42,336 bases of DNA, from contig JAAPAO010000289.1 of the NCBI GenBank assembly GCA_013115145.1, positions 1-42,336 on the forward strand, read 5' to 3'. The stretch's first letter is position 1; every line of letters starts with the position of its first letter. A model generated the notes under the pieces. The model worked only from the letters and a program-made list of their open reading frames with translations, did no database searches and had not been told where the DNA came from. Source of the stretch: Perkinsus chesapeaki (taxonomy: Eukaryota > Perkinsozoa > Perkinsida > Perkinsidae). A program made the translations under genes and the position numbers. Below are positions 1 through 35,267 of this stretch, piece by piece.

Positions 1-2327
1 AACGAAACCATCCTTTTTTAAAAGTGTCAGACAGGTTGATAGCTCCGACCTAAGGGCCTGTCGGGCCTCCTCGTCAGGTTGCAGGTGATATCGGAGCAGC
101 CTGTGGCAAAACCTAAATGATGGCCTCGAGGGAAGGGGACAAGTGGAGGGCAACCTTTGTGGTATCTCATCGACGTTGTTGATGAGTTTAAGGCAGATGA
201 TCTCCAACAGCGCTCGAGCGAGGTGTGGGCCTGGAAGTGTCAAGAATGGCAAAGGCTACCACGGGAGAGCCACAGTAGGGCCAAGTAGGGGAAGTCTCAC
301 CGGTGAGACGGGAGGACAAGCCAGTGAGTTGGGCATTAATGAGGTCCTTGGCCACCTTTGCCTCACGATCGTCTTTCACGCACAGCACGGCTTCACCTCT
401 ATTTGCATCTGAATGCTCCATGACAGAGTCATTGAGACTAGTCGAACCTCCAAAGCCCGCTCTGCCAGCTCGGCCGCACATCTGCCGTAGACGGGACGCA
501 TCGAGTGGATGGATCCCCACTTGCAGTGATCGAATGATAACTCTACGGGCCTGAGTCGACAGTCGGTTAAGAAAGCCCATGGGGAATAGAGGTACGGGAA
601 GATTGACGCCGGCAGCCAGGGTCGATGTCGCGCAGAGAGTATGGATGTAACCATTACGGAAGGCTGTCTCGATGACCCTTCTCTCTTCCATGGTGTGGCC
701 CGAGTGGTGATACCTGTGAAAACGGCATAGTCAAATGGGTAGTGCATGCACTCACGCGATGCCGCTAGGGATGCACCTTTCCAAAATAGGGGATAGACCA
801 GCTGGGCAAGCCCGAAGGATCTCGACCGCCTGCCGTCGTCCCCGAATGCTGAAGGGTTCTTGGGAAGTGTATGCAGGCTTGTGTGCTTACATGGTCTCAT
901 CGGAGTCCCACGGTACTCCAGGCCAGGTGTTCGCGAGATGCGTTGCGGTCTTCTCGCACCACACCTTTGTGGCACAGAAGACAATTACACCAGTTGCGCT
1001 TGAGGAGGAGGATGGTACCGTCTTCGATTGGTCAGATAATTCCGAGCAGGCTTCCTAAGGGTTATTGAATACCGGAAGGGCGCGGGTTCGAACCCTCGCA
1101 CGGGCTGCTTACTTGAGCCACTTCCCACACTAGAGCTGTTATGCGGTCAGGGTCCCCTCGTATCACTGGTAGTTCTCTAACTATTTTGTCCAATTCGGGA
1201 CTGTGCAAACGCGGGCCGACTTTAATAAAGTATTCCAGTGGCACTGATTGCAGGCGTTGTTGCTGACATGTTGGTGAGCAGCAGAAGGCTACCTGGACGG
1301 AATTCAGTGTTGAAAGTGTCCGCGTCGATCAGCCAGCTCTTAAGAGGATCTAGGCTGGGGAGAGTTGCCGACATACACACCACTTGGAGCTCGTAGGGCT
1401 CAGCGGAGGCGGCGGACACACGACCCGTGGCGAACCTGAGAGGTATCGGGTTCGATTCCTGGGGAGGGCATCTCGACCAACAGCATTAATTTGAGCAAGA
1501 TGAGCTCCAAGATATGCCCTCTTTGTTCATCTCCTATCATATGTAACTCGTCAATAATAACCGTTCCTGAGGCAGGATGTGACGGAAATGTGGTATTAAT
1601 TGCTACCAACGTTCGCAGTTGAACTATCTGCCTGTGACACTAGACGGTTTACCATACCATTAATCTTCTCGAGTGTACCTGTCCGCGAAGCTGCACGCTG
1701 ATCGTTGCCTGTAGAATACCCAAAGCCACGTCGACGCCCGCAGTCCAGCCGCCGATGAGATCCTCCTTATCGACGGAAGCGTTTGAATGGAACGCTTCAA
1801 TTCTGAGTGGGATGGATTTGGTGTCAATGTACATCTGATGGGCTTACCTCAGGGCTGCCAGACTCGAGCTCTGAGCCGAGTCTCCCCAAACTCGTCGAAG
1901 TTGATGTAACTTCTCTTGGCAAATAGAGACGTATCTATCGATGAGCATTGTGAACTGAGGCGGTGAAGTGACGGACGGTAGGGTGTAGAGGCCCCGGAGG
2001 CCCCGAAAGAGAAGACGTCTTAGCATGATGAGCTCTGCGACGAGGCTTTTGCCGCCACTAGTCGGGGCACAATAGACGCCACATTTAAAGGGGCGGTGGG
2101 CAGCAGCAGCTGCTGCTGGAGTGCAGTCATCATCAGTAGGTTCTTGGAAGCCAAAGATAGAGCAGCCGAGGAGGGCCCCTGAGAATGGTGTGAAAGGACT
2201 GTGATGGGCATAGCAGCAGCTTACTGAGGCAATCAGATTGCCAAGTATAAAGTCCAGTGATACCGCTGGAAAGGCGGTATCTAAACGATGAGGCGGAAAT
2301 ATGGTACAAGGTTGTTCAGTGAATTCA
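1..2327 (-). CDS. POLQ/HELQ-family superfamily 2 DNA helicase, 3' end outside window
   Basis: Predicted ATP-dependent DNA helicase of the Ski2-like POLQ/HELQ family, acting in the nucleus in break repair. Reading down the minus strand, the exons give the ordered motifs: Walker [22 protein letters not shown] (DExH box), MSATLP (motif III), [38 protein letters not shown] (motif V) and [10 protein letters not shown] (motif VI). Verified exons on plus coordinates are 1720-1802, 1625-1678, 1482-1566, 1293-1435, 1113-1243, 891-1054, 596-713, 448-550, 301-408 and 1-230; all junctions keep codon phase. The 5' exon runs upstream from 1848 as an open frame to about 2326 without an ATG, so the start is unresolved. 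Segments after motif VI and near the left edge ([14 protein letters not shown]) fit POLQ better than HELQ. Whether a polymerase domain follows cannot be seen. Two introns carry tRNA T-arm-like sequence. Confidence 0.9.
1055..1112 (-). other. 58-nt helicase intron with tRNA T-arm-like core
   Basis: Phase-verified intron between codons for WEVAQ and EACSE. It starts GTAAGC and ends CTTAG. It contains GAGGGTTCGAACCCGCGCCC, the pattern of an antisense tRNA T-arm followed by the variable loop. The core is also a near-perfect inverted repeat around TTCGAA. No full tRNA fold is present. Confidence 0.85.
1436..1481 (-). other. 46-nt helicase intron with tRNA T-arm-like core
   Basis: Intron between codons for KLML and FATGR, verified by phase and by the POLQ motif order. 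In gene sense it contains CAGGAATCGAACCCGATACC, matching the complement of a tRNA T-arm (plus strand GGGTTCGATTCC) and variable region. The preceding TGCCCTCC resembles a complementary acceptor arm. Confidence 0.85.
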
Positions 2328-2639
2328 AGTTAACGGATGAAGATGATTCCTGTCTGTTGGTCGAGAGCTGGACACCTTCCCAAATAAACCTTTTAATAAC
2401 AATCAAGCTTCTTCGTCTTTTTCCTCGGGCGCGGCACGGCCTATGAGGCCCTACAGCCGCCTTATATTTTATCAGTTAATACTAACCCTCTCATTTTCCA
2501 CATCTCTAATGCACACTTGCCGTGCTGCCCTATGACGCCTCGGCTGCCAATAAGAATGTCAACATTTTATCTCCCCAACTATAAGCGCTCTTCTAATTCG
2601 GGGTTCCCTAAAGTCCCCCATAAGCTTGGATGCGCCATC
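2328..2639. other. Spacer between helicase and orphan gene
   Basis: About 310 bp between two minus-strand genes. It may hold the helicase 5' exon and promoter; I see no convincing coding exon or repeat in it. Confidence 0.5.
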
Positions 2640-3365
2640 TTACGCTTCAACTATGTTCGGGGGTAGATGCCAGAACCTAAGGTCTGTTGGTGTAAGGGGA
2701 GGGTAATGCTGACAGTAGGGTAACGATCTAGGGTTCAGGATCGACGAGTTGGGGCCATACTCGTTGATGGACATCCTGGGGAAGAGTCCATGTCGGTTTA
2801 CACTGTGAACGTTACAGTACACTTTGGCTCACCTGGTCAGCGCCTTCTGGTCTCGCTCTTGTGCCGTATAAGCATCTCTCCCACGTGGATAGGCGATGCC
2901 GTCCAGGGAGACGTATATGGCGACTCGGTCGCCGTCGAGCACTCGAGAGCGCCATAAGCCCAGCCGACGGTTAGACTGTTTCTTCAGCATTTGACGGACC
3001 TTCGCCCGCATCTTGCTCTTGTACTGCCTAGCTTGATCACGCTTCCTCTTCCGTTCGAGGCCAGCTCGCTCTCTTAGTGGACTAGGAGCCCCGATGCTCC
3101 TAGAGTTGCCAGTGATCGGCACAGGAGCCGGAGGCTCTTCAACTGAGGTGGCACCGATGGTCAGGAAGGAAAGGTGGAGATCATCACCTTGGTGTGGTTT
3201 GGTGTAGTCCTTAAGGTAGCCGGCGTAGTTCTCCGGCAGGACTATATCATCATCCGAGTGGCGGTGCCGGTAATCGGTGGAGTAGCTTTCGACGGGTAAT
3301 AAATTGTGGTAGTAGTCATCATCATCGATAGACGAGGTTTGTTGATTCCAAGCTACTGGCGACAT
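2640..3365 (-). CDS. Orphan basic protein, 231 aa, two exons
   Basis: I do not recognise this family. The ATG at 3365 opens MSPVAWNQQ. Exon 1 (2833-3365) joins exon 2 (2640-2802) across a 30-nt intron (2803-2832, GTGAGC...TTCACAG) that removes an in-frame stop and restores phase, giving 231 residues. The N-terminal half is acidic and Tyr/Asp-rich; the middle carries a strongly basic run from about residue 100 (ERKRKRDQARQYKSKMR), a likely nuclear signal or nucleic-acid-binding helix; the C-terminal half is Pro/Asn/His-rich. It lies in the same orientation as the helicase downstream. A regulatory or DNA-binding role is only an inference from composition. Confidence 0.6.
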
Positions 3366-4473
3366 GTTACTGACATTATACAAGTGTTAATAGCTAGAGG
3401 TGTCAGAAAAAAGGAGAGGAGAGTACACTTCTGGACAATAGGAGCATACGTAGGGAATAAAGTGCTGTCGAAGTAATGCAGCGAACGCCGCCAAACGTGA
3501 TGAGCTCATCGTAGTGGTGACGTCGTTCAATAAAGTCATCTACTACCAAAGTCAATGCACCGACATCACGGGTCATGTTAGAGGCTCAAAGCACTATATA
3601 GACAGGATATATATCTATTTATATATCTATTTATATATCTATTTATATATGTACACGTTGCAGCAGCAGCAGTCGTTGAGCTGCTATGCCGTGATGTACT
3701 CTACTTATCGGTATGTGATATCATGTTTTATCCCCCATAGTTCCCACTGCTACTTTTAACTCAATATTAAACGAGTAAGAGATAGATAATCATGAAGGAG
3801 GGAAAGACTGTCAACACAGTTTCAGTCGGGGACACAGGGAAGCAGGAATGGGCAGCGGCACGAGAACGGCTGTTTGGTCCCCTCAAGTGGGCCATAAAGT
3901 ATCCTCATCGCAGTAAATGTGTTTATAGATTCAAAGGGATACCTCATCAGAGCACGAAGCTACTTTTAATCGCCCCGATGTCTTCATGAGGGAACAGTCT
4001 CTGATGGTCCTCGAAGCTTTGCCACCTAAATGCCGTCATTTCCCCCTTCACACCAAAACTCGATGCCCACCGATTCTTGAATGCTTCTTCTTTGTCTGAA
4101 GTATCCAAAACATTATGACGACTTTAGCAGTGTACCGCACTCGATAGGATTCCTATATTTCTTGCTTTAGTCCACACATTCGTTCTTTTTCATCTCATCC
4201 TCCCTTTCATTTGACAAGTACATCTCCACCAGCCGAGGCCACATAAGCTGACATAGATAGAGCCACAAAGAGCTTCGCTGCATATTCACCAACTTAACGT
4301 CAATGATACCCCCAAATAACGAGCGTAGTTCACCGCTGTCATGTGAAGGCCCAGTAATCCGAGAACGGACGGTAAGGAAGCGTTTTTGCGATGAAGAAAT
4401 GTAAGAGAGCAAGAGTCGGTAAGTGATACTGCTTAGTTTGTTTCGGTTTCCTCCCTAAACCTTCTCATCGTCT
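3366..4473. other. Intergenic region upstream of CTR9
   Basis: Divergent spacer between the orphan gene and CTR9. It holds a 12-bp microsatellite and two short open frames (3792-3989 plus, 4167-4412 minus) with no supporting features. The minus frame ends in a charged tail and could be a terminal exon of an unrecognised gene, but I could not extend it. Confidence 0.4.
3606..3650. repeat. 12-bp AT-rich microsatellite
   Basis: Tandem copies of a 12-bp unit, tatatctattta, with the single C recurring exactly every 12 bases (3615, 3627, 3639). It lies in the spacer upstream of CTR9. Confidence 0.85.
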
Positions 4474-7400
4474 ATGAGTGGCAGTGCTGGTGCCTCTGTC
4501 TCAACCGGAGGAGAATCTACACTGTAAGTTTTTGGCCTTCTGCTCTGTCGGACTGGGTCCCTACAAATGTAGACTATTGGGTGATCATCGAATCATCTGC
4601 ACGAAAGTCCGTCGCTCGAATGTCGCATAAGCTTATCAACGCGCCTCTAGTTTTGTGAAGGTCATCGTTTGTAGGTACTTTCCAGTGGACTCCTCCGATG
4701 ACTGGGTATCACTGGAAAGCAGGGACTTGCCGGAGGACGGTGATAAGATACTTGACCTACTCCGAATGGAGCTGGTCCCCTTGAAGCTCTGGCATGCACT
4801 TGCTGTAGAGTATTTTAGACAGAGGAATGATACTGTTAATATGATGAAAGTGCTGGAGGCAGCTACTGATAAGGAGCTGGAGAGCATTCAGGTGGGAGAT
4901 GTTCTCTACTGGTGATGACTTTGCTGTCAGATGTACGCCAGCCAACTACACCAAATGCAGTTTCTCATGTACGACTCTATGGGAGCATCATACTTGCAAA
5001 AAGGTCTCTATGATGGTGATGAGGAATCTGGTAGTATTATTGGGGCGATTCGGGTGAGTAGGAGTTGATTCAGTTAAGAAGGCGACGGACATGTACCAAC
5101 GTGGAGAGAATCTTAACCCCTTCGACCCTCGAACATGGCTCTCAAGAGCATGGACGGAGTTTTGCAAGTAGTGTATTGGTCGCTTAAGTGAATGTAAATG
5201 GCCATTGATCAGCTACATCAAATCCTCGGATGCAAATGGACCGTCTGTTGGAGGGCATGAGGCTTTAACAAAGTGTGTATCACATCTTGGTAATGTTATC
5301 AAGGCGGGGCCTATGGTCAATGAAGGTGGGGTGGCGGATATGGTCAGAGCACGCCTTCTTAGAGGTAAGTCTACTGGGAGGAGAGATCAACGTATTTTAC
5401 ATAATAAAAACTGATATTCCGTCTAGAAAAACCAAGGCAAAAGCGAGCATGAATTATCCTGATAAAATCTGACGCTTTTTCTAACAGGTGCGGCATTACT
5501 TTTGTTGGAGCAGCCAAAGGAGGCATTGACAGAGTACCGATTGGTGCTGCAAATGGCTGGGAGCCGCGTTCCGACCACTGCTAAAGTGGCTAATACTGCT
5601 AGGCTTGGTAGTAACGGGGCAGGAGAATGGGACGATTGGGACTGGGCGAGGATATTGGTTCCGTCAGGAACGGCTTGCGTGTTTGGCGGGGGAGCCGCTG
5701 GGTTATTTGGATTAAGATTAACAGACTCGTGCAGGAGTTAGGCGAATAATAGCTCCAACAGGTCTGCTTGGAATCACGGCGTAACCTGTCAGTTAATCTG
5801 TGAAATCTCGGAAGAGTGACGGAATCTTCAGTGACGAGATATTTGGTAAAACTGTTTCTTAGGGTTGGGAAATCAGCTGTCGTTTAGCGGGCTTAAAGAA
5901 TGCGAAATCGACTGTAAACTTGATAAATTCTGACCGAATCTGGTTCGGGATTGAGTGGGCTTATCTTTCAGGTATAGCAGCATGCCAGATGAAATTGGGG
6001 AATTTACCCAAGGCACAGGAGGCCATATTCCGGGCATTGGCGATGACTAGGAAAGGGGACCTGGATGGTGATGTAGTGGCGGCAGCGGCAGCGATACTGC
6101 AGGCTGGAGAGAGCTCTAGCGGGTACTGAGACTATACGAGGGAGCGGTATGAGTATTTAGGTCGTTGGATGCGGGTCATTTAGCGCAGGAGACAGCTCTG
6201 GCTGAGAAGGCGGGGGACCATCCCGTTGCTTTAACCATTCTTGCACGACAGGTGGGAGAGATGTCGGGCAGGGGGATCGGACCTGGGTGCTTTGGTTCAG
6301 AGCCTGGTGTTGGCGGCCGCGGCTAAGGATGATGAGGAGGGCCGTAAGAGATATCTTAGGACGGCCCGACGACTGGTAGGCTGAGGTAGCGCGTTGTGGG
6401 AAACAGAATGGTGGCAGGCGGAGGCGGCGGAGTCTCGGGTATGTGGGAAAGGGGCGAGACCGTTGTTGACGGAAATATGCCTGTTGAAGGCTAAGATCAC
6501 ACACGCTGAAGGGGACGTGGAGAAGGCTAAGAAACTATATGAAGAAGCTACAAAGCAGCTACCTTTGGGGAGCATGCATTACTCACATACAGCAAGCAGC
6601 AACAAGGACACTCCTATACCGTCAATGCTGCCGACCACGGAGAGGCTGTCATGTGCAGCTCTGTCGGGCTTGATTGCGACATCGGCGGATGATGGCACGG
6701 AAACTGGACGAAAGATGCACGTTCATCACGGGAAAAAGTTGCTGCAACTGCAGGCTGTGTCGGCGGCTAATACGGACAGCAGTGTGACTCATGGCGGGCT
6801 GAGGTTCGATGATGCTATAGCGTTGTTGTTGGCGAGGCAGTTGGGGCATGCACCGTTGCCTAGTGATAGTAGGAAGGCATTGGAGTTGGTTGAAGGGGTG
6901 AGTATGCATGCTAAACAAGCTAAGGAGAAGTAATAAGGGATACGAGGGGAAAACCGGCAGCGTGGTTATTGAACGTGTGAGCGATTATACTAAATGGGGA
7001 AATGGCGTTTGCCAGTGCAAGATAGGGTAGGGCCAGTTGAAGCAGATTGCAATGAGTAATACAGCTAATAGGATACTACTGAGGTTTCACTGACCATCGG
7101 AGATGATATTGCCGCTATGGTTATTTTGAAATGATCCTTCCCTACAGGCACGGCACATTTGACCAGAGTCTAGATTATGAGAGACATAAGTTGTATGTGT
7201 CATTGGTGTTGGGGGGCAAGAATATGGGAGCATTAACTAAGGCCGAGGTAGGGCTGCTGCTGCTTGGTGTGGTGTTGATGTATATAGGGGATGGTGGGTA
7301 GGCACAGCATTGCTTACAGGAGCTCAATGAGTTCTTGGCAGCTAAGGAGGAGAATAAGGAGGAGGATGTGTCAGTGGTTCAGGTAAGGTGCTGGAATGAC

Positions 7401-10400
7401 GGTGGGAAAATAATTCTACGCGGCTGTGGCTCTTATTGATGTTACTAAGGCGGATATTGTTAGGCGTTGATCACGAGAGGAGCGCTGCGGGCATCGGCGT
7501 TGAAGGAGCCTAAAAGGGGTCTGGACGACTTGGCGAGGGCTAAGATAATTATGTTGAAGACGGATGGTGGCGGCGTCGATGCGGAGGCTTATAGAGTGCT
7601 GTGGCGTAAGAGGAGTGGTGACTGTATTGGGCGAATTGTGGTGGTAGGCACACGAGTGTTTAACAAGGGTTTGTGTTATGAGGGAATGGCCACCACACAT
7701 GGAGGAATGTCTGGCGTTGACAGGGCTTTGAAAACGTGACAACAGCAGCAGCTGTAGTGATGGATGACGGGATGCGGAACATCAGGTACCGGAGGCTGGT
7801 GGAGAGGCAGCCGGATTACACGGACGCTATGGTTCGTATTGGAAAGATATACGAGAATGTTAGAGGCGACCTGTCCAAGGCTGAGGAATGGTAGCAAGGG
7901 GGATGCCTGCCGATGAGGGAGATTTAACCACGGTTCATGTAGGTATCGGAAAGCTATGGATGCGGTGCCGCTGAAGGAGGGTGGGACAACTATGGGAGCT
8001 TTGTGTCGAGCATCTATGCAGCACCACAAGCTAGTAAGTACTGAGAATCGAGTATTAAGTAGCTCTTGTTCAGAGGAATGCAGCGGCAGGCATAAAGACT
8101 ATAAGGGACAACTGTGGGTCACATAACGATCCTTATATTTACGAGGTGAGTGGGAGAGGTAGCCATCACTGAGGAATTGTATTTTGGCAGCTATTGGGAG
8201 ATATGCATGTCGACCATGCTAGATCGAGCTATGCTAAAACCCAGATAGACGAGAAGGATAGCATGAATAAGGCTATCAAGTTTTATCTCAAGGTAATGGG
8301 CGGACAGTCTCGGCCGGCGTCGAGGCTGCTGAACTATTCAGCTATGGATCTCAATGGATGCCAGTGTTATTGGAAATTTGGGGTCAGTGGGGTGTGTTGT
8401 ATTTTAGGCCATCGCCGGATCAACCCCTCCGAAGCCCCATGGTACTCCACATGGCACTCCATCATCGCCGCCTCATGCTGTATCAGCTATAATGGGCATA
8501 GCTGCGGTAAGCCGTGCTTGGAGATTCGTCGGTATCCTTGTTGCTAGGTACTGGGACATAGAGGGAGGAAGCAGCAGGCAATGGATTTATTGACCTCTAT
8601 TGAGGAGCATTCCACTGGTGAGGTTAAGTACCAGCTCAGTTGCCGTGTTAGGGTGGAAGCAGGTTGGAATTGGGCGGCATCGGCGAATCTGGGGCACTTG
8701 TATGTTGACGAGTATTATGCTATGAAGACCGAGATAGATGAGAAGAAGAGGGCTGATAAATCTCACGGTGCCCTGCAGATCCCACCACAGCTTTTGGCTG
8801 CGGAGCATGCAGTACGGCCACGTCGTCCTGGTATTGGCATTGGGAGTCTGCTCTTTGATTAGGCGGCTCGTCGGGCTGTCAAGTGTTATGAAGGCGCTAT
8901 GAAGACATATACCGGCGGTGACAGCACCATCAAGCAAGCGTTGGTGCTATACCTTTCGAACGCGTAGGTTTGATTCACCACTGGAGTTGAGGCTTGCCAC
9001 GGGCTTGGTAGGTATTTTCTGGCTGATCGGCATAATGATAGCATTGACATGCTCAACGAAGCCGTAGTGATGTGGCCAGAGAACCTCAGATTCAAGTACG
9101 ATGACGATAGGCATCAATCATCGGCATGATCGCCCTGGGCTCGTTCTATCACAACGCTTGCGCGTTAGGTATAACTTAGCTATGGTGCTCGAGAACTATG
9201 CAGCCGCCTCTCTTTTGGATAGTACGAAGAAGAACCAAGCCGAATGGGTTAAGAAGGCTCTATTAATGGTGAGCCCTCCGAGGTTTCGAGGAAGCATGCA
9301 ATTGCGATGATGTGCAGGTCCGGTGTGCGCTTGGCCATTTCCGGTCAATCGAGAGTATCGCGGGCACGACACCGATGCAGGCGATTCCCCGCATCCTGAA
9401 ACGGAAAATATTCAATAACAATTACATCACCAATCCAGAAGGTGAGTGTCGCTATCGTACCACTGGGTGGGGAAGACAGGAAGTGACCGTGGACAAAGTG
9501 TCATGGAAACCACCGGAGCCGCCATTGCGAGCCTTGATTGCGTTGAAGAGCGTGAACTTGTCTCTTCAGCGTTCACCAAGGAAATGAAGGCCCCGGAGGA
9601 TATATTCTCAAAGGCGTTCAAGAGGCATTTCGAGTATCTCCGTGATACGGTAGGCATACAGCACATCTCGATCCGACCGTGGCTATACTCTATGTTAGTC
9701 GAGGAAAGCGGAAGATTGGCTGCGTAAGCTGGAAGTCACGCAGAACGTGCATGAGGAGACTATGAGGTTAATTGAAAAAGAGAGAAATGAAAGGTATGCA
9801 TTTCGGCAGGGTGGCCGGTTTTTCACTCTTTCATCATTCCTTCCGGAAGGAATCTCTATTTTTCCGAAAGGAAGAATGCCTACTATTTCTCGGAAAAATA
9901 GCTACTCCGAGAACAAGACTTAAAACAAGACTCCGATATAAGAGGCATAGCACGTGAGAAGGCTCTTACGAATAGCGCAATACGTTTATAATGCTCGGCA
10001 CGGATCCAGTATTTAGTATCCACTTTGCGTTTTGGCAAAGATGGTATAGCGTAGCTCTTGGCTCACGGAACTCTTGAGGGCTTCGGTGCATAGCCGGCTG
10101 TGATGTCACGTTAATCGATTGAAGACTTGGCGTCGGCGCAATGCCGTTAAGTTTGGTCGTGTAGCGGGCATTGAAAGTGAACCTTTTTTAGGATGGAGAG
10201 GGAGAAACGTGAACAAGAGGCAAAGGAGGAGGAAGACAAACGACGACGGGAGGTGGGAATGGGTCAGGTCGCCATCCTGATGCTAGACTTATGCCACTCT
10301 TCATCATCTCTTGCTAATCGAAAGTTGTTAGAGGCTCTGGTTAGGAACTGGATCGGGAAGCCGAGAACAGGATGGACGTTATTCGATCAAGTGTAGCCAA

Positions 10401-11512: not shown

Positions 11513-12828
11513 TGGCGAGTAGCTTGAACGTGTTTGATTCACTGAGTGAATTTCACTTATGGACATTTATGGAAACTTTTCCAAGGTGATATCTCTCGTT
11601 GAGTTCACAACGGCCTAGGAGTATTTGTTTGCGTAATCTACCGGGTAGTATTTTTGTCCCTGGACCGTTAGACGGCCTGTATACTAATGTTTCTCCGATC
11701 GCCGTGACATAGCTCCTTTGGGATTCCCCGGAAATCATTCCCGACAGTAGGTAGTGACACTTTAGATAAACAGTGTTAATCTCGTTCAAAATGCTGCGTG
11801 ACTGCCTTGGCTTTACACCGTTTAGGCGTGGCTCGTTTCTGCGGTCAGCTGTTTTATTAAAATGAAATTATAAATGAAATAATAATTCGAGTCATTGTAG
11901 CTCTAATCTGCAATGGTATCACTAATAGTGATTCATTATATAACCTACTAAGTGCTATAACTATTTATATTACATAACTTTCATACTACAATTTGTTGTC
12001 TACAACCAAGCCTCCCCTGGTGGTACTTGGGATGCATGCATAAGTGCCACGTTGTCAAGTTGGCAATGTCAACGCAGGCACTGCCTGCCGGGCACCATTA
12101 TTTTTCTTGAAATGATCTCGCATGCTTACATCGTAAGCCTAACAGACCATCTCTGCTCTAGGTCCGAGCGTTGCATGCAATTCGAATGATTTGACCGCTT
12201 GGGAATTGGGACTCAAATCGAATTTGAGGTGTATACTGTACACTGTATAGTATATCCCCAGCACTAGGGAGTTACGTGAATAAGATTTATTACCCCAACA
12301 AGTGTTTGTTCCTTGTGAGGAAATGTGGTGCCGATAATCCCAATGTTACCGTGAGCCTTTTGGGTGATCTACATGCCTCTAGTTGATATGTCTGTCCGTT
12401 CAGTAGATGGTCTACGTCTCTCCGGTCTGTGCATTGACTATTGATTCTATGATTCATCTACTTTCTGCGGTTCGTACTTGAAACTAGTGAAGGGGTCAAT
12501 CTAAGTTTGAAACACGTCATGTTTGTGATAGATACCGTATCTATGTGAACTCATGATCCTAAGGTTCACGCTCTGTGAACTACACTGTAGTCACTACAGC
12601 GGTTAGTGGTATCTGTGGGTGACGTAGATGGTTTTGTTTTGAACATCAAGTATTGGCTGCGTGAGCTGTCTTTCTTTATGGCTTACTTATGATCCGTGGG
12701 TGATCCACCCGCTCCTGGTGTTACACCAGTGGTGTATATGTCAACTAATGACCCAGTGGGTGGTCTACGACTCTCTGGTCTATGAACTAACTGGTCAAAA
12801 TATCAGTGATACTATGAATGGTCTAGAT
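11513..12828. other. Gene-poor region after CTR9
   Basis: About 1.3 kb with no exon I can support. From roughly 12.35 kb it shows scattered degenerate repeats (ggtctacg..tctc.ggtctatg near 12410 and 12765) related in style to the tandem repeat that follows. Confidence 0.5.
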
Positions 12829-13446
12829 GTTTTTGTTCGTATGGGTACTGACGGGCTAATGGTGATCCGTTTTGTTGTCCGTCCGTTGACTCATGGCATC
12901 GTCGGTGATGCACGTTTTTGCGGTTTGTACGTGAACTAGCGAGTCACTAGTAGTGACAACGTCATACCTTTAAATGTTGATTTTCTGTTCGTGGAGCACT
13001 GATGCAACTGATGAGTTATTGATACTGGGTTGATGGGCCGGGTTATTATGGACTTCTCAGAAGCAACTGGTGTTTTTGTTTGTATGCGTACGATNNNNNN
13101 NNNNNNNNNNNNNNNNNNNNNNNNNNNNNNNNNNNNNNNNNNNNNNNNNNNNNNNNNNNNNNNNNNNNNNNNNNNNNNNNNNNNNNNNNNNGCCGGGTTA
13201 TTATGGACTTCTCAGAAGCAACTGGTGTTTTTGTTTGTATGCGTACTGATGGGCTAAGGGTGATATGTTTTTTGTCTGTCCGTTGGCTCATGGCATCGTC
13301 GGTGATCTAGGTTTTTGCGGTTTGTACTCGAACTAATGGCTATGTCGTAGCTTCGAATAATGCTTTTTCGTTCGTGGAGTACTGATGCAACTGATGAGTT
13401 ATTGATACTTGATTGATGGGCTAGGTCATTATGGACTTCGTAGAAG
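12829..13446. repeat. Degenerate tandem repeat, unit about 230-240 bp
   Basis: Recurring blocks include tgtttttgtt(c/t)gtatg(g/c)gtactga (about 12829, 13071, 13226), gactcatggcatcgtcggtgat-like sequence (about 12890, 13280) and gatgcaactgatgagttattg (about 13001, 13385). Spacing outside the assembly gap is about 228-242 bp. No long frame is conserved between copies, so this looks like non-coding satellite-type DNA. Confidence 0.75.
13095..13191. other. Assembly gap of 97 N
   Basis: Run of N inside the tandem repeat. The 55 bases before it (13037-13091) and the 55 bases after it (13192-13246) are identical, so its size and even its existence are doubtful. Confidence 0.97.
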
Positions 13447-13573
13447 CTCAGCTGTCACGAGTACCACCATGATACCGCAGTTTTGTGAGCAATGTTCACT
13501 TGACGTCTCTCGTGAGCAGAACTAAGGCATTCTATGCAAATAGCGCCATGCTTTTGCTTGCGAGTCGTTTCCT

Positions 13574-19233: not shown

Positions 19234-19402
19234 GGGTGAATTCATTCCATTAATGATAATTGTCGTCGTCATCAGCTGGTGATCACTACTTACCTATCCG
19301 ACTGCTATTATGATAATGCAAGTAGTGACGGTCGACAGTTGTTGAGTTTCCTGTTGGGCGGAGGCAGCGGAGCGACGCGGTACCAGAAGGTTTTAGTGAT
19401 CG

Positions 19403-25180: not shown

Positions 25181-25486
25181 GACTTCATGTACAGTACTAT
25201 TAATCCGCTCCATTATTATTCCTATATGTGAAAATACTATTAATATTAGGAGCCTGTATAGTAGAATATACCAGAGGCTTATCGTTGAGGCGTCAAAGTA
25301 CCCGAGAGATTTGATACTTCACTTTGGCGCGGTGGGCGGTATAGCGGCCTCACTAACGGCACGGATGGGGGGAGGTCGCCAACACCGAAGCTCTTCCATA
25401 AGCCAACTCGAAGGATAGTTTTTCCAGGGAACTAGCAAAGCTGCTACAGAGAGATAAGAAAGTGGTGGTAATTACTATTAGAATAG

Positions 25487-25697
25487 TGTCGCGTAGCTCC
25501 CAGAAGATGTGACCGGAGGCATACTATGAACGCAAGAACTTGAGCCAAGATGGCTACAGACTCACTAGATGCTAGCTCAGAACCGCAGGCTCGGAAAGGA
25601 CTAGTAATAGCTATGCATGCTGAAGCGCTCGCCCAGAAATATTGATCGAACGCATATACAAAGCATAGAGCAGAGCAACATCAGGAAGTACGTCACA
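25487..25697 (-). repeat. 3' LTR of the retrotransposon (211 bp)
   Basis: Second LTR, same length and apparently identical to 31231-31441. It starts 34 bp past the Gag-Pol stop, just after the purine tract. Confidence 0.97.
25539..25557 (-). promoter_or_regulatory. Spliced-leader-like 19-mer in 3' LTR
   Basis: Same 19-mer as at 31283-31301, at the equivalent LTR position, as expected for an LTR-internal sequence. Confidence 0.8.
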
Positions 25698-25709
25698 TCT
25701 CGCCCCCTC
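25698..25709 (-). promoter_or_regulatory. Polypurine tract
   Basis: Minus strand GAGGGGGCGAGA abuts the 3' LTR start, the usual place for priming plus-strand synthesis. Confidence 0.85.
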
Positions 25710-25731
25710 AGGTGGCGACTCACTGAGCCAC

Positions 25732-28700
25732 CTAATCAACGCTCTCTCTGGAAGGGTTAATAGGAACCTTCCTGACTATTCTGGGAGACAGCTTAACCAA
25801 AGCTTCCACGTCTCCAGTGACAGATAGTTTACCATCATTACCAATGTAAAGAGGTCTTAGCTGATTATCCCATAGACGACATTCTTGAACCAAATACTCA
25901 CCACGACCAGTCCAATTTTTAATAAGACCGTAACGAGAAATAGAATCATACGGATCCTTCCAGGTAACAAATTTACCAGCCGCTCTTCGGGTAATGCGAG
26001 GCTCTCCTGAACCTAAGCTAGTTGAAGGACGAGAGTGTACATTACGGGAAGAATCGCGAAGATCTACATCTCCATCAAGATAAACTTTTAAATGATCAGA
26101 ACTGTAAACTTGTTTACGACCGTCGGGCAACTTAACTTCATAACAACGTGATCCAATCTTACGTGTTATCACTCCTTCACGCCACATACGGTCTAGCTTA
26201 TGACTAGGACGATGCCAAACCAGAACCTCATCCCCTTCCTCAAATTTCTCAATTGGGTTAGGACTCTGTGGCTTCTGAGATTGCCAGAGCAATTTCCAAT
26301 CTTCTAAAATCTTCGTTCTCCTTATACGGAGTTTCTCACAGGCCGAGGAAATGGCCGATGAGTTTTTCTTATTGAAATGTGAAACATATTTGATAATGTC
26401 ATCATTATTGATCGGACTTGAACTCACCTGTGACGACGCCCATTGGGCTAAAGGGGATTGAAGTGGGAAACCATAAACTGCCTCGTGGGGAGTGATACCC
26501 AGAATTGTATCAACAGTTGTATTAACTCGAGCTTGGGCTAGGCCTAAGGCATCTTTTAAAGTTAGCTTGGGATCTTCCTCCAACAAGGCACGTAGAGCCA
26601 TATTAACCACCGCATGAGGCCTCTCGTAAAATGACCCACTCGATGGGTGATACACAGGTATCAAGACGTGCTTAATATGATAAAGAGAGAGAAGAGTATC
26701 AAAATTAATGCTTTTGACAAATTGAACACCATTATCAGTGATCACACACCGCGGACAGGAGTACTTGAGCAGGAATTCATTCTCGAATACTCTACTCACC
26801 TCCTCAGCAGATACCTTTTTCATAATGAAGAATAGACAATACCTTGTCAACAAGCATGTAATAGATAAGATGAATCGCTCACTGCGACTAGCGCCTACGA
26901 GTGGGCCTACTATATCAACTCCAACGGTTTCGAACGGCCTCGATGGACAAAACCAATGAGATATAGCAGCTTTACGTATCCTGGGAAATTTAGTAAACTG
27001 ACAAGCCTTACAGCATTTAACACATCTTTTGATATCAGACCTCGCCTTAGGCCACCAAAATACTCTCATAATCAACTTGAATGTATTATTAATACCAATA
27101 TGACCATGTAATCTATGAAAATAACTTATTACTTCGTTAACAAATGATGAAGCATATTTAGCAGACGGAAGAACAATCTTCGGAGAATCCTCATAATACT
27201 CACTAGGCTTAGTAGATACTTTACATAAGATACCATCAACCATAAGCATATGTTGGGCATATTTTTGGATATTTTTAGGGCATTTATCAAAACTGGGGTT
27301 ACTTGACTCTAATACCTTTATGCTTTCAGCAGCCATAGTATCTTTATGCTGCTGAGATTGAATAAATCTAGTAAATATATCGCCAACAGATACAACATCA
27401 CCATTACGCCAAGCTTGAAAGCAGTTACTCAATAAGACATAATCTTGAAAGCTGGGCAAATTATCAATAGTGGCAACAGAGACACTGCAACAATCTAGCT
27501 CAACCACATCTATTCCCGTACAGAGATCTTCTGCAACCTGAGGCAGCGACCGGATGTCCTTGGCAGGAATAGCCGTATCAATACGAGAAAGTAGATCTGG
27601 TTGTGCATTCTGACTTGCCGATACATGAATGAACCGGATAGAGAGTTTATGCGAGCGAACAAGTCTTAACATATCAATACAACACTCACGTAATCTGGAA
27701 GTGGCCAACCACTCCACTCCCTTCATCTTATGTGGGCGATCATCTAATCGTCTGATCGCAGTAGTAGAGTCGCTCGCAAGCATGACGGATTCTAACTGTG
27801 GGAAGTGATCATTAATAAGTAAAGAACAGAACTGCCCCAGCGAGCTGCTTAAACAGAAAAGCTCCCTCCTATTCGCATGCCAATAAGTGGCATTACGTGC
27901 AAACAGGTGGGAACGAGCACCAATAATCACGATCTTATAAGTCGCAGCTCCCGAGGAAACATTCTTTTCAATCGAATACCAAACAGAAGCATACCCACAG
28001 TTAGACGCGTCATTACCGATCACTAATATCTTAACAACAGAAAGTAAGGGCACCTCTAGAGGAATACGCGCCCATGCTTCTACCGCAGCAAATAAATGGT
28101 TATTAACCTCCTTATGAATATCAGGAGGCAACGGATCATCAAAACCTAAACTCTGGGATGCACTAATCCTACGAGCCCAATCACAATGACTACGAGCCTG
28201 AACTTCCTCTAGTGAGAACCATAAACTAATGAAACGACCAGCTAGACAAAAAACATCACGTTTACAATTAGAAACTGCAGCTTCAATCAATGGCGGTTTC
28301 ATGCGCAAGACGGAACCGTCCCACGACCAATAAGCACCGAGCCATTTAGAATAGTCGGTACTCCAAACCGCCTTCTTCTCTTCCGGGATGTCGAAACCCA
28401 CCAGATTGAGAGTCTGATTCAAAATCAGCTCAAAGTTCTCAAGGGTTTCTTGGCAAGATATAACTAATATATCATCCATCATCCGTATGGTTGTCACAGT
28501 AGGAAAGTAATGCTCCAAGATGCTCCATACCAAATCCAGTGATTGCTCTAGGGCTCCAGGCCCTATGGCCAGACCAAAACTGAGTCGGGTACTTCTCATG
28601 GTAATACCACGGCCATAATTTATGAAAATCGGATGAGAAATGGCTAGCCTATAAAACGCTCGAGCCAAATCATACTGGCGAACCTGTTTTCCTGGGGTGA

Positions 28701-31266
28701 GGGTCCCTCTCAGCTTCTGAACAATGCTTGCAACACTATGTTTTTTACTAGATGCTACGGGAGCTTTCACATTTAAGACTCGCGCATCTATTACAGGACG
28801 AACTTTGGTAGTTTTCGCCATGGAAACCACCGGAAAAGCTGTCGCCGTATCATCTGGGACCTCACCTGGGAAAACTCGCTCCCACCACTGCCGATTCTCA
28901 TACATTTCCAATTCTTTCAACCATAACTCATATTGCTCCGGACTCAGTTTTTGTAATAATCTATTAGGTGACCACGATCTTCTGTCTCCTTTACTTTTAG
29001 TCTCATCCCAATCCACCATAAATCTATATTTTTGGGTAGGTGTATCACGTACATCTTCATCCGTTAATCTAACTAATCGAATCCTGTAACCTTCCGCATT
29101 ATTAACAGAGATCCATCCTTCATTAGCCAATTTCTCGAAACATTTATCGATAGAATCACAGTCGCTCCAATCTCTTTTGATAACAGTTTTTGGTACATCA
29201 GCTGGCACCCACTCCTGGGTTTCTTGCTCGGACTCTTCCGGGCCTTCCTCGATTTCCTGATTGACGGCATCCAAGACCGCTAAATCATCTCCGGAGAAAG
29301 AGGAACTCAAACTGCCTTGCAGCTCGACGTTGCTGCAATCGATCCTTTCTGGATTGATAATCTCAACGAAGGACACATCCGAGAACTCGTAGGCCCCGTT
29401 CCTTTCTCTAGGTAACGGCTCCGACCTATTACGCGAGGAATCGGATTCTCTTAACGCATCCAACAACTCTTGCTGGATACACTCAAAAGCTGACTCATCG
29501 TCAAATCTATATACCAGCTTTGCACCACATAAACGCAACGCTGACCTCCCCAAAATGAGGTCAAATGACAGCCCTGACGCTATCAAAAATGGTAATAGTA
29601 AGTCCTTGCCACCCACTGTGCATGGAATAATTGTTTCTTCCGTGAGCAACTGTGTCTGCCTGTTAGCAAAAATCGCGCGAAGCGGCGCAATAAGCCTACG
29701 CTTCACTTCCAACTGCTTTGCCAAACTCTCACTAATCAAAGCCAGCGCTGATCCACTATCTATCAACGCTTCATGCTCAACTTCGTCAATCGTAACTTTG
29801 CATGTACTGGGAGGGCACGCTGTTGCTAAAGTGAGAGATCTAAACTCTTTAGACTCCTTTTCTTCAATCGATGCGATCTCGATGGAACCCTGCTCCACTT
29901 CGACCGCCATCGTTTTATGATTAGGCGAAGAATTGGGTTTAGATTCTACGCCCGACTGTGCTTTACCATTCTTCTCGGCTTGAACTGGTGGTTGACGTTT
30001 GGGACAATCCCGAGCGATATGTCCATAGTTCTGGCAATTAAAACATTTTATACTACTCTGACCTTCGCTTGTTCTAGAGCTCGGCCTCCACTGCACCTGA
30101 CGTTGTTCGCTATCTCGACGGAACTGCTGCTCGTGCTGGCGACCTCCCTGGCCCTTTCCCACAGAGAAACCTTTTCCAGGCAGGAATCCCTGTTGCTTAG
30201 AATCTTGGAAGTCTCTCTCAAAGAACTCGGCCGTATCAATGATGCTGGCCAAGGGCTTACTATATAGTTTAGCACCATAACGAGTTTTGAGCTTTGCAAC
30301 CAAGGGACCAGGCAAGCCTTTAAGAAATTGGTTCCGCACATCCATAGCAGTTAATGCCGGTAGTGAAGCTGCTAGTTCTTGCACTCTACCACCGAATGCA
30401 AGTACATTTTCATCAGATCTCTTATATAATTTGCTGAAATTACTAGCTGCTCGACCTTCACTCCACTGACTGGCGTATTCTGTATCCAGACGCTCCCATA
30501 ATAAATTGAAAATATCCTCTTGCAGTTCTCCAAGATCGTCCAAATCATTCAGCTCTGCCAATTGATCTTGGCAAAAAGTTTTCGCTCTACCAACCAAGTT
30601 TCGAGTCAAATAATAACATGCCAATCTTCCTTTCAGCTGGTAACTGCGGCATCCCGACACCACTCGTTTCTTAAAGATCTCATATGTCACATAAGAAGTA
30701 CTAGACTCTTTAGTATCAACATTCCAAGGAGCCGCCTCTACCAACGGAAGAGAATTCAACTCGATTTTATTTTGAACTTGGTCGCTGGCAACTTCAGGAA
30801 CCTTATCTTTGGCCTCTAGACCTAAGCCTTTGGCAATTCTTCCTATCATCGCAGAGTTATTATCATTAAAAATAGACTCCAAAGCTTGCAATTTAACTAA
30901 TAAGCGCATAACACATAAGCTTAGACAATAGGCCAACTCGGCCGCTCCATCTCCCAGACCACTATCAAGCGTACACCAATAAATTGCAACAAATACTGCT
31001 CGCCAAACTTCACCAAAGTTCGTGGCATTAGTGCCTCTAGTAATCTCTTTAAAGAACTCCTTCAGCTCAGTACCTCCCTTTCTCACTAACACTCCTATCT
31101 TCGATCTTGCTCTTGCTTCATCTGCAATATCGAGAAGTTCATCAACTATTAGATAAACTTTCTCCGCCATAGCTTTATCCTCCGGCTCTTCTGGCTGGAT
31201 GTCCCGCAAGCCCTGCATCGACCACCAATTTGTCGCGTAGCTCCCAGAAGATGTGACCGGAGGCAT
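25732..31266 (-). CDS. Gag-Pol polyprotein, 1,844 aa, single frame
   Basis: Polyprotein for retrotransposition. In order: Gag (residues 1-400), a CCHC zinc knuckle (C408, C411, H416, C421), aspartic protease with DSG at 503-505, reverse transcriptase (catalytic D866; MMDD at 929-932 where YxDD is usual; LSFGLAIGP nearby), RNase H (D1086, E1135, D1166, D1224), integrase zinc finger (H1384-H1389 region, C1419/C1422) and integrase DDE triad (D1451, D1511, E1548). A GPY-like module follows (about 1678-1730, FEEGDEVLVWHRP...SSDHLKVY), then a tail of about 110 residues. All core residues but the RT Tyr are present, so it is probably active. The first ATG lies in the LTR and the frame crosses the primer-binding site. 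ATGs at residues 17 and 33 are alternative starts, but the LTR ATG is preceded by the leader relic. Confidence 0.96.
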   Translation of the reverse strand: MPPVTSSGSYATNWWSMQGLRDIQPEEPEDKAMAEKVYLIVDELLDIADEARARSKIGVLVRKGGTELKEFFKEITRGTNATNFGEVWRAVFVAIYWCTLDSGLGDGAAELAYCLSLCVMRLLVKLQALESIFNDNNSAMIGRIAKGLGLEAKDKVPEVASDQVQNKIELNSLPLVEAAPWNVDTKESSTSYVTYEIFKKRVVSGCRSYQLKGRLACYYLTRNLVGRAKTFCQDQLAELNDLDDLGELQEDIFNLLWERLDTEYASQWSEGRAASNFSKLYKRSDENVLAFGGRVQELAASLPALTAMDVRNQFLKGLPGPLVAKLKTRYGAKLYSKPLASIIDTAEFFERDFQDSKQQGFLPGKGFSVGKGQGGRQHEQQFRRDSEQRQVQWRPSSRTSEGQSSIKCFNCQNYGHIARDCPKRQPPVQAEKNGKAQSGVESKPNSSPNHKTMAVEVEQGSIEIASIEEKESKEFRSLTLATACPPSTCKVTIDEVEHEALIDSGSALALISESLAKQLEVKRRLIAPLRAIFANRQTQLLTEETIIPCTVGGKDLLLPFLIASGLSFDLILGRSALRLCGAKLVYRFDDESAFECIQQELLDALRESDSSRNRSEPLPRERNGAYEFSDVSFVEIINPERIDCSNVELQGSLSSSFSGDDLAVLDAVNQEIEEGPEESEQETQEWVPADVPKTVIKRDWSDCDSIDKCFEKLANEGWISVNNAEGYRIRLVRLTDEDVRDTPTQKYRFMVDWDETKSKGDRRSWSPNRLLQKLSPEQYELWLKELEMYENRQWWERVFPGEVPDDTATAFPVVSMAKTTKVRPVIDARVLNVKAPVASSKKHSVASIVQKLRGTLTPGKQVRQYDLARAFYRLAISHPIFINYGRGITMRSTRLSFGLAIGPGALEQSLDLVWSILEHYFPTVTTIRMMDDILVISCQETLENFELILNQTLNLVGFDIPEEKKAVWSTDYSKWLGAYWSWDGSVLRMKPPLIEAAVSNCKRDVFCLAGRFISLWFSLEEVQARSHCDWARRISASQSLGFDDPLPPDIHKEVNNHLFAAVEAWARIPLEVPLLSVVKILVIGNDASNCGYASVWYSIEKNVSSGAATYKIVIIGARSHLFARNATYWHANRRELFCLSSSLGQFCSLLINDHFPQLESVMLASDSTTAIRRLDDRPHKMKGVEWLATSRLRECCIDMLRLVRSHKLSIRFIHVSASQNAQPDLLSRIDTAIPAKDIRSLPQVAEDLCTGIDVVELDCCSVSVATIDNLPSFQDYVLLSNCFQAWRNGDVVSVGDIFTRFIQSQQHKDTMAAESIKVLESSNPSFDKCPKNIQKYAQHMLMVDGILCKVSTKPSEYYEDSPKIVLPSAKYASSFVNEVISYFHRLHGHIGINNTFKLIMRVFWWPKARSDIKRCVKCCKACQFTKFPRIRKAAISHWFCPSRPFETVGVDIVGPLVGASRSERFILSITCLLTRYCLFFIMKKVSAEEVSRVFENEFLLKYSCPRCVITDNGVQFVKSINFDTLLSLYHIKHVLIPVYHPSSGSFYERPHAVVNMALRALLEEDPKLTLKDALGLAQARVNTTVDTILGITPHEAVYGFPLQSPLAQWASSQVSSSPINNDDIIKYVSHFNKKNSSAISSACEKLRIRRTKILEDWKLLWQSQKPQSPNPIEKFEEGDEVLVWHRPSHKLDRMWREGVITRKIGSRCYEVKLPDGRKQVYSSDHLKVYLDGDVDLRDSSRNVHSRPSTSLGSGEPRITRRAAGKFVTWKDPYDSISRYGLIKNWTGRGEYLVQECRLWDNQLRPLYIGNDGKLSVTGDVEALVKLSPRIVRKVPINPSRESVD
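31212..31227 (-). promoter_or_regulatory. Primer-binding site
   Basis: Three bases inside the 5' LTR edge the minus strand reads TGGTGGTCGATGCAGG. The TGG start matches the 3' CCA of a tRNA primer; I cannot name the tRNA. This stretch is also translated in the Gag-Pol frame. Confidence 0.7.
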
Positions 31267-31441
31267 ACTATGAACGCAAGAACTTGAGCCAAGATGGCTA
31301 CAGACTCACTAGATGCTAGCTCAGAACCGCAGGCTCGGAAAGGACTAGTAATAGCTATGCATGCTGAAGCGCTCGCCCAGAAATATTGATCGAACGCATA
31401 TACAAAGCATAGAGCAGAGCAACATCAGGAAGTACGTCACA
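31231..31441 (-). repeat. 5' LTR of the retrotransposon (211 bp)
   Basis: First LTR in element orientation. It begins TGTGACGTAC at 31441 and ends GCTACGCGACA at 31231. It contains the Gag-Pol start codon (31264-31266) and, 16 nt before it, a spliced-leader-like 19-mer. It is the same length as the other LTR and appears identical. Confidence 0.97.
31283..31301 (-). promoter_or_regulatory. Spliced-leader-like 19-mer in 5' LTR
   Basis: Minus strand reads GTAGCCATCTTGGCTCAAG, one mismatch to the corresponding part of the dinoflagellate spliced leader (20 of 22 over the full leader). It is 16 nt upstream of the Gag-Pol ATG. An identical copy lies in the 3' LTR at 25539-25557. It resembles a leader relic captured from a trans-spliced transcript. 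Confidence 0.8.
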
Positions 31442-31517
31442 AATAGCTATTAGTAAATTGCTTTATTAAATAATACAAGGCAGATAGATACTTATGAACA
31501 TCAGACTCACGGGAGAA

Positions 31518-31562
31518 GTACCGAGGGTGGGGTTCGAACCTGCGCCATGCGCATGCGTGCAG
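31518..31562 (+). other. Candidate 45-nt intron with tRNA T-arm-like core
   Basis: Bounded by GTACC and GTGCAG, with GTGGGGTTCGAACCTGCGCC in the same relative place as in the other T-arm introns. The flanking frames are not proven exons, so the intron call is provisional. It lies 77 bp from the retrotransposon edge. Confidence 0.5.
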
Positions 31563-32595
31563 ATCCTGGCCCAGTTGTGTGGCAGATTATTATGTGCCTT
31601 GAAAAATCTTGTACACTTTGAATTATGCTATTTCCAGTGTGAGAATCGATTACAGTGGCCCGCGCAATATTCAACTGCCCATTTCCGACTGGAGTGGCTG
31701 GGGGCTCCAAACTGTTCCGAGAAGCAGCTTTTAGATTTGCCTCTTCGATTTTAGGAGGTATTATTTAACACCTCTGCCTATTCTAGAACCAAGTGGTTTC
31801 TCCATCCATTACCTATTTTTGTTTCGTCTCATCTCCTCGATGTTGAATCTATCTTGCACTATTTAGCGTTCGTACTTCCTAAGGAAATGAATTTCGTTTA
31901 GTAGTAGGGTTCATTAAGGAACATTAGCGACTTTGACGGTTTCGGCCCCAGTGCTGGAACCAAGCTACTACGTGACCATCTAAGATGTGGACTCCTATCG
32001 ATTCTTGTGAGTCGTATTGCATCGATTAAGCGAGGGAAATTCGGATCCCTAACTGAGGGGGGCAGCAGATAACATTGCTAGTCCGTTACGGCTCCACGTC
32101 TCAGTAACTCAGTCATCAGTTAAATGCAGCCCTCTGGACAATACCAAAACAGATCGGCCTTTATTGGCATACCAACGGCGGGAACAGTCGAGGCTGAATT
32201 TGACGACTATGTGAGAAGTCCAGTGCAGAGATGTAACGCCTGGTACTTGTCGATTGTGCAAATTGTCCCCGTTTGCAGCCGCTTTCCGTTCGACATCTCC
32301 GAATGCTATGGACAATCTCTACGGCAACAGATCGGCTGCTTACATGTAACCGATGTCACATTGGAGGACGCTCGAGGCTGGTGTGTTTCAGGAACGCATC
32401 TGGGAGGGGCGCACAGAAGGAACAAGCTCCGAGCGGTAGCCTGGAAAACGGATTTTATCGTCAATACGGAACTTTACAGAAACCCTCAATCCATCAAGCG
32501 GCAGCCGTGCCCCGAGTGTACCGGAGCCTCCAGCTCCTGTAGCTTTCAGGGACTTGCCTTCTGGAAAGATCACTGAGGTCTGCATAAGAGGCATG
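31563..32595 (+). other. Unresolved region upstream of coiled-coil gene copy 1
   Basis: A 64-codon frame after the candidate intron (31563-31754) and a 150-codon frame (32124-32576) are open but show no domain. They may be 5' exons of the coiled-coil gene that follows or chance frames. Confidence 0.3.
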
Positions 32596-33098
32596 GGAGA
32601 CGCAACGTGGGCTTGTTCAGAGCACTTCGTTTGAGGGGACCTCTTCGGGTCGTTTTGGGGACCTATCTGTCAAGCAGAAGGTTGAAAGGGTTGCTGAGGG
32701 CCTGAACCATTTGAGACAGGTAGACCCTGGGTTCGATCCCGGCACCTGGAATGTATATTATTAAAGGTTCATAATGAACATGCCGCTCAAGTTCAAATGA
32801 GGGCGGATGAGCTTCGTTCGGATATCCAGAGTAATGTCGATTCTGCGGGGACGAACGCCAGCTGGTGTAGGTGCGGCACGGGACATCGGTCAGCTCAGAG
32901 AGGAGGTCACCACTTCATCTAGACAACAACAAAAGTACCCTCCCTGGGATTCGAACCGGGGACCGATTTCTTGCTAGATTCTTGCACGAAGTTAAAGCTA
33001 TTTTAGAGGGTCACATTCGGCGTAGTGAAGCCTGTCTTGTTCATATACAGTCGCAGGCTGAGGAGCTGGCCAAACGGCAAGATAGAATGGAGCGAGCA
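32596..33098 (+). CDS. Coiled-coil protein copy 1, possibly Nup54-like (ends unresolved)
   Basis: Tandem paralog of 34190-35246. Exons: one ending at 32719 (GDLSVKQKVERVAEGLNHLR), 32767-32830, 32871-32934 and 32978-33098, all in phase. Introns are 47 nt (32720-32766, T-arm-like), 40 nt (32831-32870, absent from copy 2) and 43 nt (32935-32977, T-arm-like). The encoded helix (LHEVKAILEGHIRRSEACLV, AKRQDRMERA) resembles the C-terminal coiled coil of nuclear-pore protein Nup54/Nup57. An FG dipeptide before GDLS would fit but is thin evidence. A good donor (GTAAGG at 33099) leads to a last exon I could not locate, so the copy may be degenerate at its 3' end. Confidence 0.6.
32720..32766 (+). other. 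47-nt T-arm-like intron, copy 1
   Basis: Located between codons for HLRQ and VHNE. It contains CCTGGGTTCGATCCCGGCACC, a stem of five pairs around a TTCGAT loop. The same intron in copy 2 is 315 nt (34397-34711) without this motif. Confidence 0.85.
32831..32870 (+). other. 40-nt intron present only in copy 1
   Basis: Removing it aligns copy 1 with copy 2 residue for residue over 26 positions (SDIQSAARDIGQLREE against NDVQVVNASVVQLKEE). Copy 2 is continuous at this site. Confidence 0.8.
32935..32977 (+). other. 43-nt T-arm-like intron, copy 1
   Basis: Starts GTACCC and ends GCTAG. It contains CCTGGGATTCGAACCGGGGA, matching the complement of a tRNA T-arm. The orthologous intron in copy 2 (34840-34884, 45 nt) lacks the motif. 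Confidence 0.85.
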
Positions 33099-35246: not shown

Positions 35247-35267
35247 TTTGTAGTGGTGTAGTCATGA

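Follow-up and report, generated by a model that had tools for sequence, protein, structure and literature searches.

A tRNA-gene-like module of B box and terminator in short introns of Perkinsus chesapeaki

Positions 1 to 42,336 of contig JAAPAO010000289.1 of Perkinsus chesapeaki (assembly GCA_013115145.1; this whole stretch of 42,336 nucleotides is hereafter the window) contain several short introns with a tRNA-like core, which an earlier note made from the letters of the window alone had read as an antisense tRNA T-arm. Analysis of the genome (35.39 Mb in 884 contigs) supports a dispersed intron family with this core at many unrelated gene positions, genome-wide. The common feature of its members is not a T-arm but a linear RNA polymerase III (Pol III) B box followed by a terminator, and the module that carries both nearly fills short GT-AG introns. 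At about even odds (0.5), these introns form one introner-like family derived from a copied Pol III-type module of ~42 bp placed in either orientation. How spliceosomal introns originate has long been debated, introners being a main known route, and the tRNA-gene-like module suggests that introns can come from unusual starting material.

Abundance and architecture of the module

The cores listed in the earlier note are all present in the sequence. Its full pattern, GGNTTCGAWCCNGNNMCC, has 126 exact matches in the genome against one for the reversed-pattern control, which excludes that the core is no commoner than chance. The sequence retrieved for closer analysis (window included) covers 100 of these 126 matches. 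Real tRNA genes were rejected as the explanation, as just 5 of the 100 retrieved copies overlap them (ARAGORN); the genome holds 62 tRNA matches and 39 class II tRNAs, the latter possibly overlapping the 62. Exact B boxes number 1555 against 53 in the control, near-palindromic ones being counted on both strands. A B box followed after 10-12 nt by ATTTT was found 412 times in the genome and never in the control, the spacing being 10 nt at all except six of the places listed. When the B box was left out of the query, 64 matches were returned against one in the control, and a B box (at least 8 of 11 bases) is present in 34 of the 40 readable ones, the other six having at most 6 bases. In addition, a profile built from 83 copies was run over 238 kb of retrieved sequence, where it marked 70 places above 10 bits, training copies included, against about one in Markov and reversed controls. 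Once copies already located by the pattern, known tRNA genes and edge cases are set aside, 33 profile copies remain at 12 bits or more, three of which resemble tRNA genes by eye. The cores are genuine and much more frequent than chance allows. Extrapolation from regions that were picked around matches suggests several thousand module copies genome-wide.

A profile of 95 non-tRNA copies gives a module of ~42 nt with the consensus AANCGAAAGGTCNCNGGTTCGAAYCCCRGNNNNGGCATTTTT. Its edges are sharp, the signal leaving background at tRNA position 37 and dropping after five T's, and its order (variable region, B box, acceptor-like stretch, A73, oligo-T) is linear like the 3′ end of a tRNA gene. The extended Pol III B box, GGTCNCNGGTTCGANYCC, is followed by ten bases, Y-A and oligo-T. 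These 95 copies were chosen by pattern, so that the conservation of the core partly reflects this choice, a bias that the B-box-free and profile-only sets lessen. Among the 34 B-box-holding copies of the B-box-free search, positions 53, 55, 56, 58 and 61 are invariant and position 60 is always C or T; positions 52, 54 and 57 vary in 2, 1 and 3 copies respectively, and position 62 is C in only 25. Subfamily structure is weak, with similar pairs exceeding column shuffles (47 versus 8.2 at an identity of at least 33/42).

The resemblance to a tRNA does not extend to its fold. Among the 61 terminator-bearing copies, the T-stem pairs 49-65, 50-64 and 51-63 form at frequencies of 0.43, 0.57 and 0.41, where 0.48, 0.59 and 0.49 are expected. 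The 100 rows that lack a terminator, some of them near-palindromic cores that were read on both strands, give 0.54, 0.43 and 0.26 against 0.51, 0.35 and 0.45, and only 50-64 exceeds the shuffle (p = 0.005). In the B-box-free set (n = 34) the same pairs form in 9, 22 and 16 copies, with 15.0, 22.0 and 14.0 in the shuffles. The corresponding figures for tRNA-gene rows are 21, 21 and 19 of 21, although many of these rows are near-identical tRNA-Arg and two were read on the wrong strand. Pairing of a tRNA-like T-stem was not found in any of the three module sets when compared with shuffles, and the T-arm structure proposed from the window does not hold. Introns also fold no better than their dinucleotide shuffles (mean z of -0.28 for 24 introns and -0.19 for 16 introns). 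Therefore, what is conserved is the B box at the level of DNA, and the splicing-promoting hairpin that the earlier note had offered as an alternative is unsupported.

An A box lies upstream of the module in 10 of 109 copies, compared with 2-5 in controls; a promoter of A box plus B box is not characteristic of the modules, and full-length elements bearing an A box were rejected as the rule. Rfam searches at 20 loci, which picked up a single true tRNA gene, detected none at the elements themselves and gave three weak transfer-messenger RNA matches there (E 0.037, 5.1 and 5.1). In the window, Rfam returned just two sub-threshold matches, neither at a core.

Several local arrangements of the module were also observed. 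A 10-kb region (L029) holds seven copies, several without an intron reading, and is a possible nest or source locus. A repeat present in five copies (L080, L097, L108, L109 and L110) carries the module; just upstream of it in L097 is a perfect inverted repeat, TTTGCGCAC-ATTTT-GTGCGCAAA, of which L108 and L110 have imperfect forms. The copy in L065 is 88% identical over 42 nt to the window copy at 31530, with ~20 common bases upstream of the B box, a likeness that may be a hint of a longer ancestral element.

Position within introns and orientation

Intron status was assessed with a codon-model phase test, which asks if excision of a GT-AG interval of 32-110 nt over the core would bring the coding stretches on its two sides together in phase. 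After exclusion of 11 of the 95 copies for short flanks, 50% of the remaining 84 score above 9, compared with 15% of 336 random positions (p = 1.2e-8). For the 33 profile-only copies the proportions are 39% and 10% (p = 0.001), and without the three tRNA-like rows 12 of 30 score above 9 against 10.3% of random positions. The test is insensitive, as four introns of the window score only 5.4 to 9.2.

Ten spliced proteins, hand-picked for good coding scores and recognisable domains, were compared with Pfam. The matched stretch spans the junction in nine of them, six lying above the curated cut-off; the acyltransferase fails. Where the module is reversed (L033), the spliced DnaJ domain aligns gap-free over the junction (Pfam E = 6.5e-26). 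Where it is forward (L040), splicing restores a histidine-kinase ATPase domain (Pfam E = 2.1e-14), with one structure alignment gap-free at the junction and another showing a one-residue gap beside it. Within the window, removal of introns 1055-1112 and 1436-1481 yields a continuous helicase frame, and retention of the former gives an in-frame stop. The spliced product aligns to the DNA polymerase theta helicase (E about 6e-24), with matched sequence to the left and right of the two junctions. An alignment gap of 3-4 residues adjoins each of them, the junction of 1436-1481 lying one residue from a 4-residue gap, so that this alignment supports the frame and does not prove the exact boundaries. 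In the cases examined, homology would support precise removal of the module introns, and it is firmer support for intron status than the phase test.

Orientation was assigned by score and margin, leaving out unclear cases, and 30 introns are forward (sense) and 17 reversed (antisense). The antisense arrangement proposed from the window is therefore not a trait of the family. Lengths of 42-53 nt account for 34 of these 47 introns; in the text available of a P. marinus study, introns of that species measure 39-1622 bp and are mostly shorter than 100 (PMC3101222). Each strand beats random expectation in the phase test (26 and 18 of 84 above a score of 9, with 7.6% expected per strand), where strand labels follow the pattern; the 30/17 count relabels the introns by module orientation.

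The position of the module within the intron is regular. In a forward copy, the AA-rich left end has the donor GT at its edge or just within it, and the oligo-T with the AG behind it forms the acceptor. Positions 37-38 are AA in 32 of 120 copies, and GT precedes 11 of these 32, the next commonest dinucleotide preceding 5. In a reversed copy, the oligo-A end would lie at the donor and the left end would supply TT..AG. Oligo-T is partly lost in reversed copies, with T at 53-65% per site versus 63-87% in forward copies. Reversed copies have a GTAA at a distance of 12-20 nt ahead of the B box at 176 places, against one in the reversed-pattern control, and its spacing is peaked (27-29 nt at 70 of 100 places listed, p = 2.5e-14). 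However, the module's own A-run lies at that place and makes much of the peak, which leaves the donor test weak; the GTAA count was rejected as independent support, and the case for reversed introns rests on the phase test and homology. A B-box-free test for reversed copies was uninformative (5 matches versus 2 in the control).

Origin of the module-bearing introns

Under the reading given even odds above, a mobile module of Pol III type, which may have been a truncated tRNA-like retroposon, would have inserted its copies into genes, and these would have created introns rather than invading old ones. The B box would have been kept because the source copies needed it. Its conservation means either that source copies were many and held to it by their own transcription, or that the host keeps it. 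A mobile or copied Pol III-type module is favoured by the way the module fills the intron, by its sharp edges, by an oligo-T for which reversed introns have no need, and by the weak subfamilies. As a more tentative proposition, given somewhat less than an even chance, a Pol III promoter-plus-terminator module that needs no RNA structure would be the raw material of thousands of introns and constitute a class of introners that work in both directions and do not stem from DNA transposons; with AA-rich and T-rich ends, such a module could become an intron either way round. If true, an intron family with the transcription signals of tRNA genes, working in either direction, would be a new source of introns.

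Several observations weigh against this origin. Target-site duplications were not found in 36 introns, nor was there an excess of direct repeats. The best pair among 120 copies agrees at 36/42 positions, with 38/42 reached inside one local repeat family, and no near-identical copies were found outside that family in the comparison of the 120. In the absence of duplications and of near-identical unrelated copies, insertion is something that we infer. Positions 66-69 are variable (0.06-0.22 bits) beside a B box that is ~98% kept, a pattern not expected if recent copies had simply decayed. The window gene at 32124-33120 has a second copy (34.2-35.5 kb) whose introns occupy the corresponding places and contain no clear module, which argues against intron creation at those sites. 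Finally, ~62 of the 176 GTAA places are expected from composition, and local GTAA (26/140) barely exceeds CTAA and ATAA (19 each).

Introners have diverse origins and have been traced to various transposons, many of which bear the marks of DNA transposons (Gozashti 2022, PMC9860276, as far as the text available states). Like introners there and in Amoebophrya (PMC7789003, in the part available), the introns described here are short, similar and dispersed in unrelated genes, and to this extent the introner-like character suggested in the earlier note stands; its insertion component was not caught in the act. The module copies differ in being strongly diverged apart from the Pol III-type B box and terminator, and high end-to-end identity is not found (best unrelated pair as above). 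The lack of target-site duplications is shared with some known introner families, which in the same partial text also lack inverted repeats (PMC9860276). By term count, neither 'tRNA' nor 'Perkinsus' occurs in the main text of PMC9860276. No tRNA-like introner appears among the literature matches listed, which comprise titles and abstract openings, subscription papers being outside their scope. Since neither insertion marks nor high copy identity was found, membership of the introners is not claimed.

The main rival is that the host maintains TFIIIC-binding B-box sites, selected within short introns that are older than the sites. This is rather unlikely. Extra TFIIIC (ETC) sites have an extended B box without a tRNA. 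The modules would resemble them in this, to judge by the B-box sequence alone; they are far more numerous, nearly fill introns and keep a fixed spacing to A plus oligo-T. A B box so well conserved beside variable neighbours is what host selection would produce. RNA structure would not be needed, both orientations would be tolerated as is seen, and neither the missing target-site duplications in the 36 introns nor the module-free introns of the second gene copy would be surprising. However, maintenance by the host explains neither the 10-nt spacing to A plus oligo-T nor the sharp module of ~42 nt that fills introns, and the partial loss of oligo-T from reversed copies is equally unaccounted for. 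Moreover, the B box is altered in two copies of the five-copy repeat family, which speaks mildly against host selection there. Should the sites be host-kept instead, introns would carry TFIIIC-type sites genome-wide, which is also unexpected.

It is improbable that the modules go back to many independent captures of tRNA pseudogenes or gene ends, each time from another tRNA. The tRNA genes of this genome do share with the module the geometry of B box, ten bases, A73 and oligo-T, as well as tRNA-Leu variable-arm words, and the tRNA-Leu sequence CGAAAGGGCGCGGGTTCGAATCC differs from the module consensus at one base in 23 (by eye). The combination of variable acceptor-like positions with tRNA-like invariants would also fit such captures, as would the few copies that keep an A box at tRNA spacing (e.g. 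L089, L038 and L044). Against this, T-stem pairs 49-65 and 51-63 do not exceed the shuffle level, Rfam detected no tRNA at the elements of the 20 loci, and the 5′ half of a tRNA gene is mostly absent. As a particular source, tRNA-Phe was rejected, as tRNA-Phe of this genome has AGTTCGA. The 80-nt candidate intron of L089 resembles a whole reversed tRNA-like element with its A box and is a possible intermediate.

Short interspersed elements (SINEs) derived from tRNAs contain a Pol III B box within a 5′ head that resembles a tRNA. The module is like them in B box and tRNA resemblance, but its B box adjoins the terminator, the A box is mostly missing, and neither a body or tail nor a target-site duplication was seen. 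The tRNA-derived SINE suggested for the window introns is not borne out by these results.

An RNA element that promotes splicing, either a T-arm-like hairpin or a protein site, is very improbable. It would account for the regular position within the intron, but the T-stem does not pair as in a tRNA, the mean folding z values are those given above, and the flanks that are not palindromic are found either way round, so that the transcribed sequence differs. A chance meeting of tRNA-like words and intron-like GT and AG is extremely improbable, since controls of 0-1 stand against 126, 412 and 64 matches and conserved domains are restored on intron removal, even though short GT-AG pairs are common and the phase-test threshold is also passed by 15% of random positions.

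Features of the window

The coordinates of the modules, genes and repeats in the window are collected in Table 1; besides these, the window encodes further genes that have short introns.

Table 1. Module copies, gene models and repeats in the 42,336-nt window
Feature	Position	Strand	Details
Helicase gene, HELQ/polymerase-theta-like, partial model	188-2329	-	holds introns 1055-1112 and 1436-1481
GT-AG intron, 58 nt, module antisense	1055-1112	-	core 1084-1095; in helicase gene
GT-AG intron, 46 nt, module antisense	1436-1481	-	core 1448-1459; same helicase gene
Candidate intron, 49 nt, degenerate antisense module	6252-6300	+	profile 16.1 bits; coding-phase score 14.4
Direct repeat	12828-13064 and 13226-13447		79% identical over a 237-column alignment
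Ty3-type long terminal repeat (LTR) retrotransposon	25487-31441	-	one open frame of 1857 amino acids
Module copy, intron status not supported	31518-31562	-	B box 31530-31540; near Ty3-type LTR element
Gene of unknown function, partial model	32124-33120	+	holds introns 32720-32766 and 32935-32977
Intron, 47 nt, module orientation ambiguous	32720-32766	+	core 32729-32739; coding-phase score 9.2
Intron, 43 nt, module antisense	32935-32977	+	core 32947-32957; coding-phase score 5.4

Five T-arm-like cores had been listed as all those noticed, each in an intron or intron candidate and each antisense. The introns at four of them are supported. The fifth (31518-31562), provisional from the start, did not qualify as an intron, with a coding-phase score of -0.2, despite a profile score of 31.7 bits. 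The list had also missed the degenerate copy at 6252-6300, over whose junction one spliced frame is open. Antisense orientation holds in the window for 1055-1112, 1436-1481 and 32935-32977, as well as for the degenerate copy, and is ambiguous for 32720-32766. The profile prefers antisense for the latter (9.3 versus 6.1 bits), as does labelling by score and margin, but the closest subfamily (GGTTCGATCCCGGCACCTGTCATTTT; L026, L047 and L095) reads sense and the core is nearly palindromic. The distance from the 5′ splice site to the core, put at 13-27 nt in the earlier note, is 9-22 nt in the four window introns (counted by eye).

For one exon of the helicase gene, the best match is to a protein of Perkinsus olseni, with 71% identity and coverage of 70% of the query. 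For the gene of unknown function, no Pfam match was found in 32124-32576. Its exons are matched by the second gene copy (34231-35500), where the match begins at the acceptor TAG of intron 32935-32977. The two copies have intron positions in common and the introns differ, the first in the second copy, at the place matching 32720-32766, being much longer (by eye). A DNA search for further copies of the gene part at 32600-33120 found none close enough to detect.

The Ty3-type element has zinc knuckle and integrase zinc-binding domains above the Pfam cut-off, and protease and reverse transcriptase below it. It is flanked by two identical repeats of 211 bp, and the identity of these end repeats indicates that the element is probably a recent insertion.

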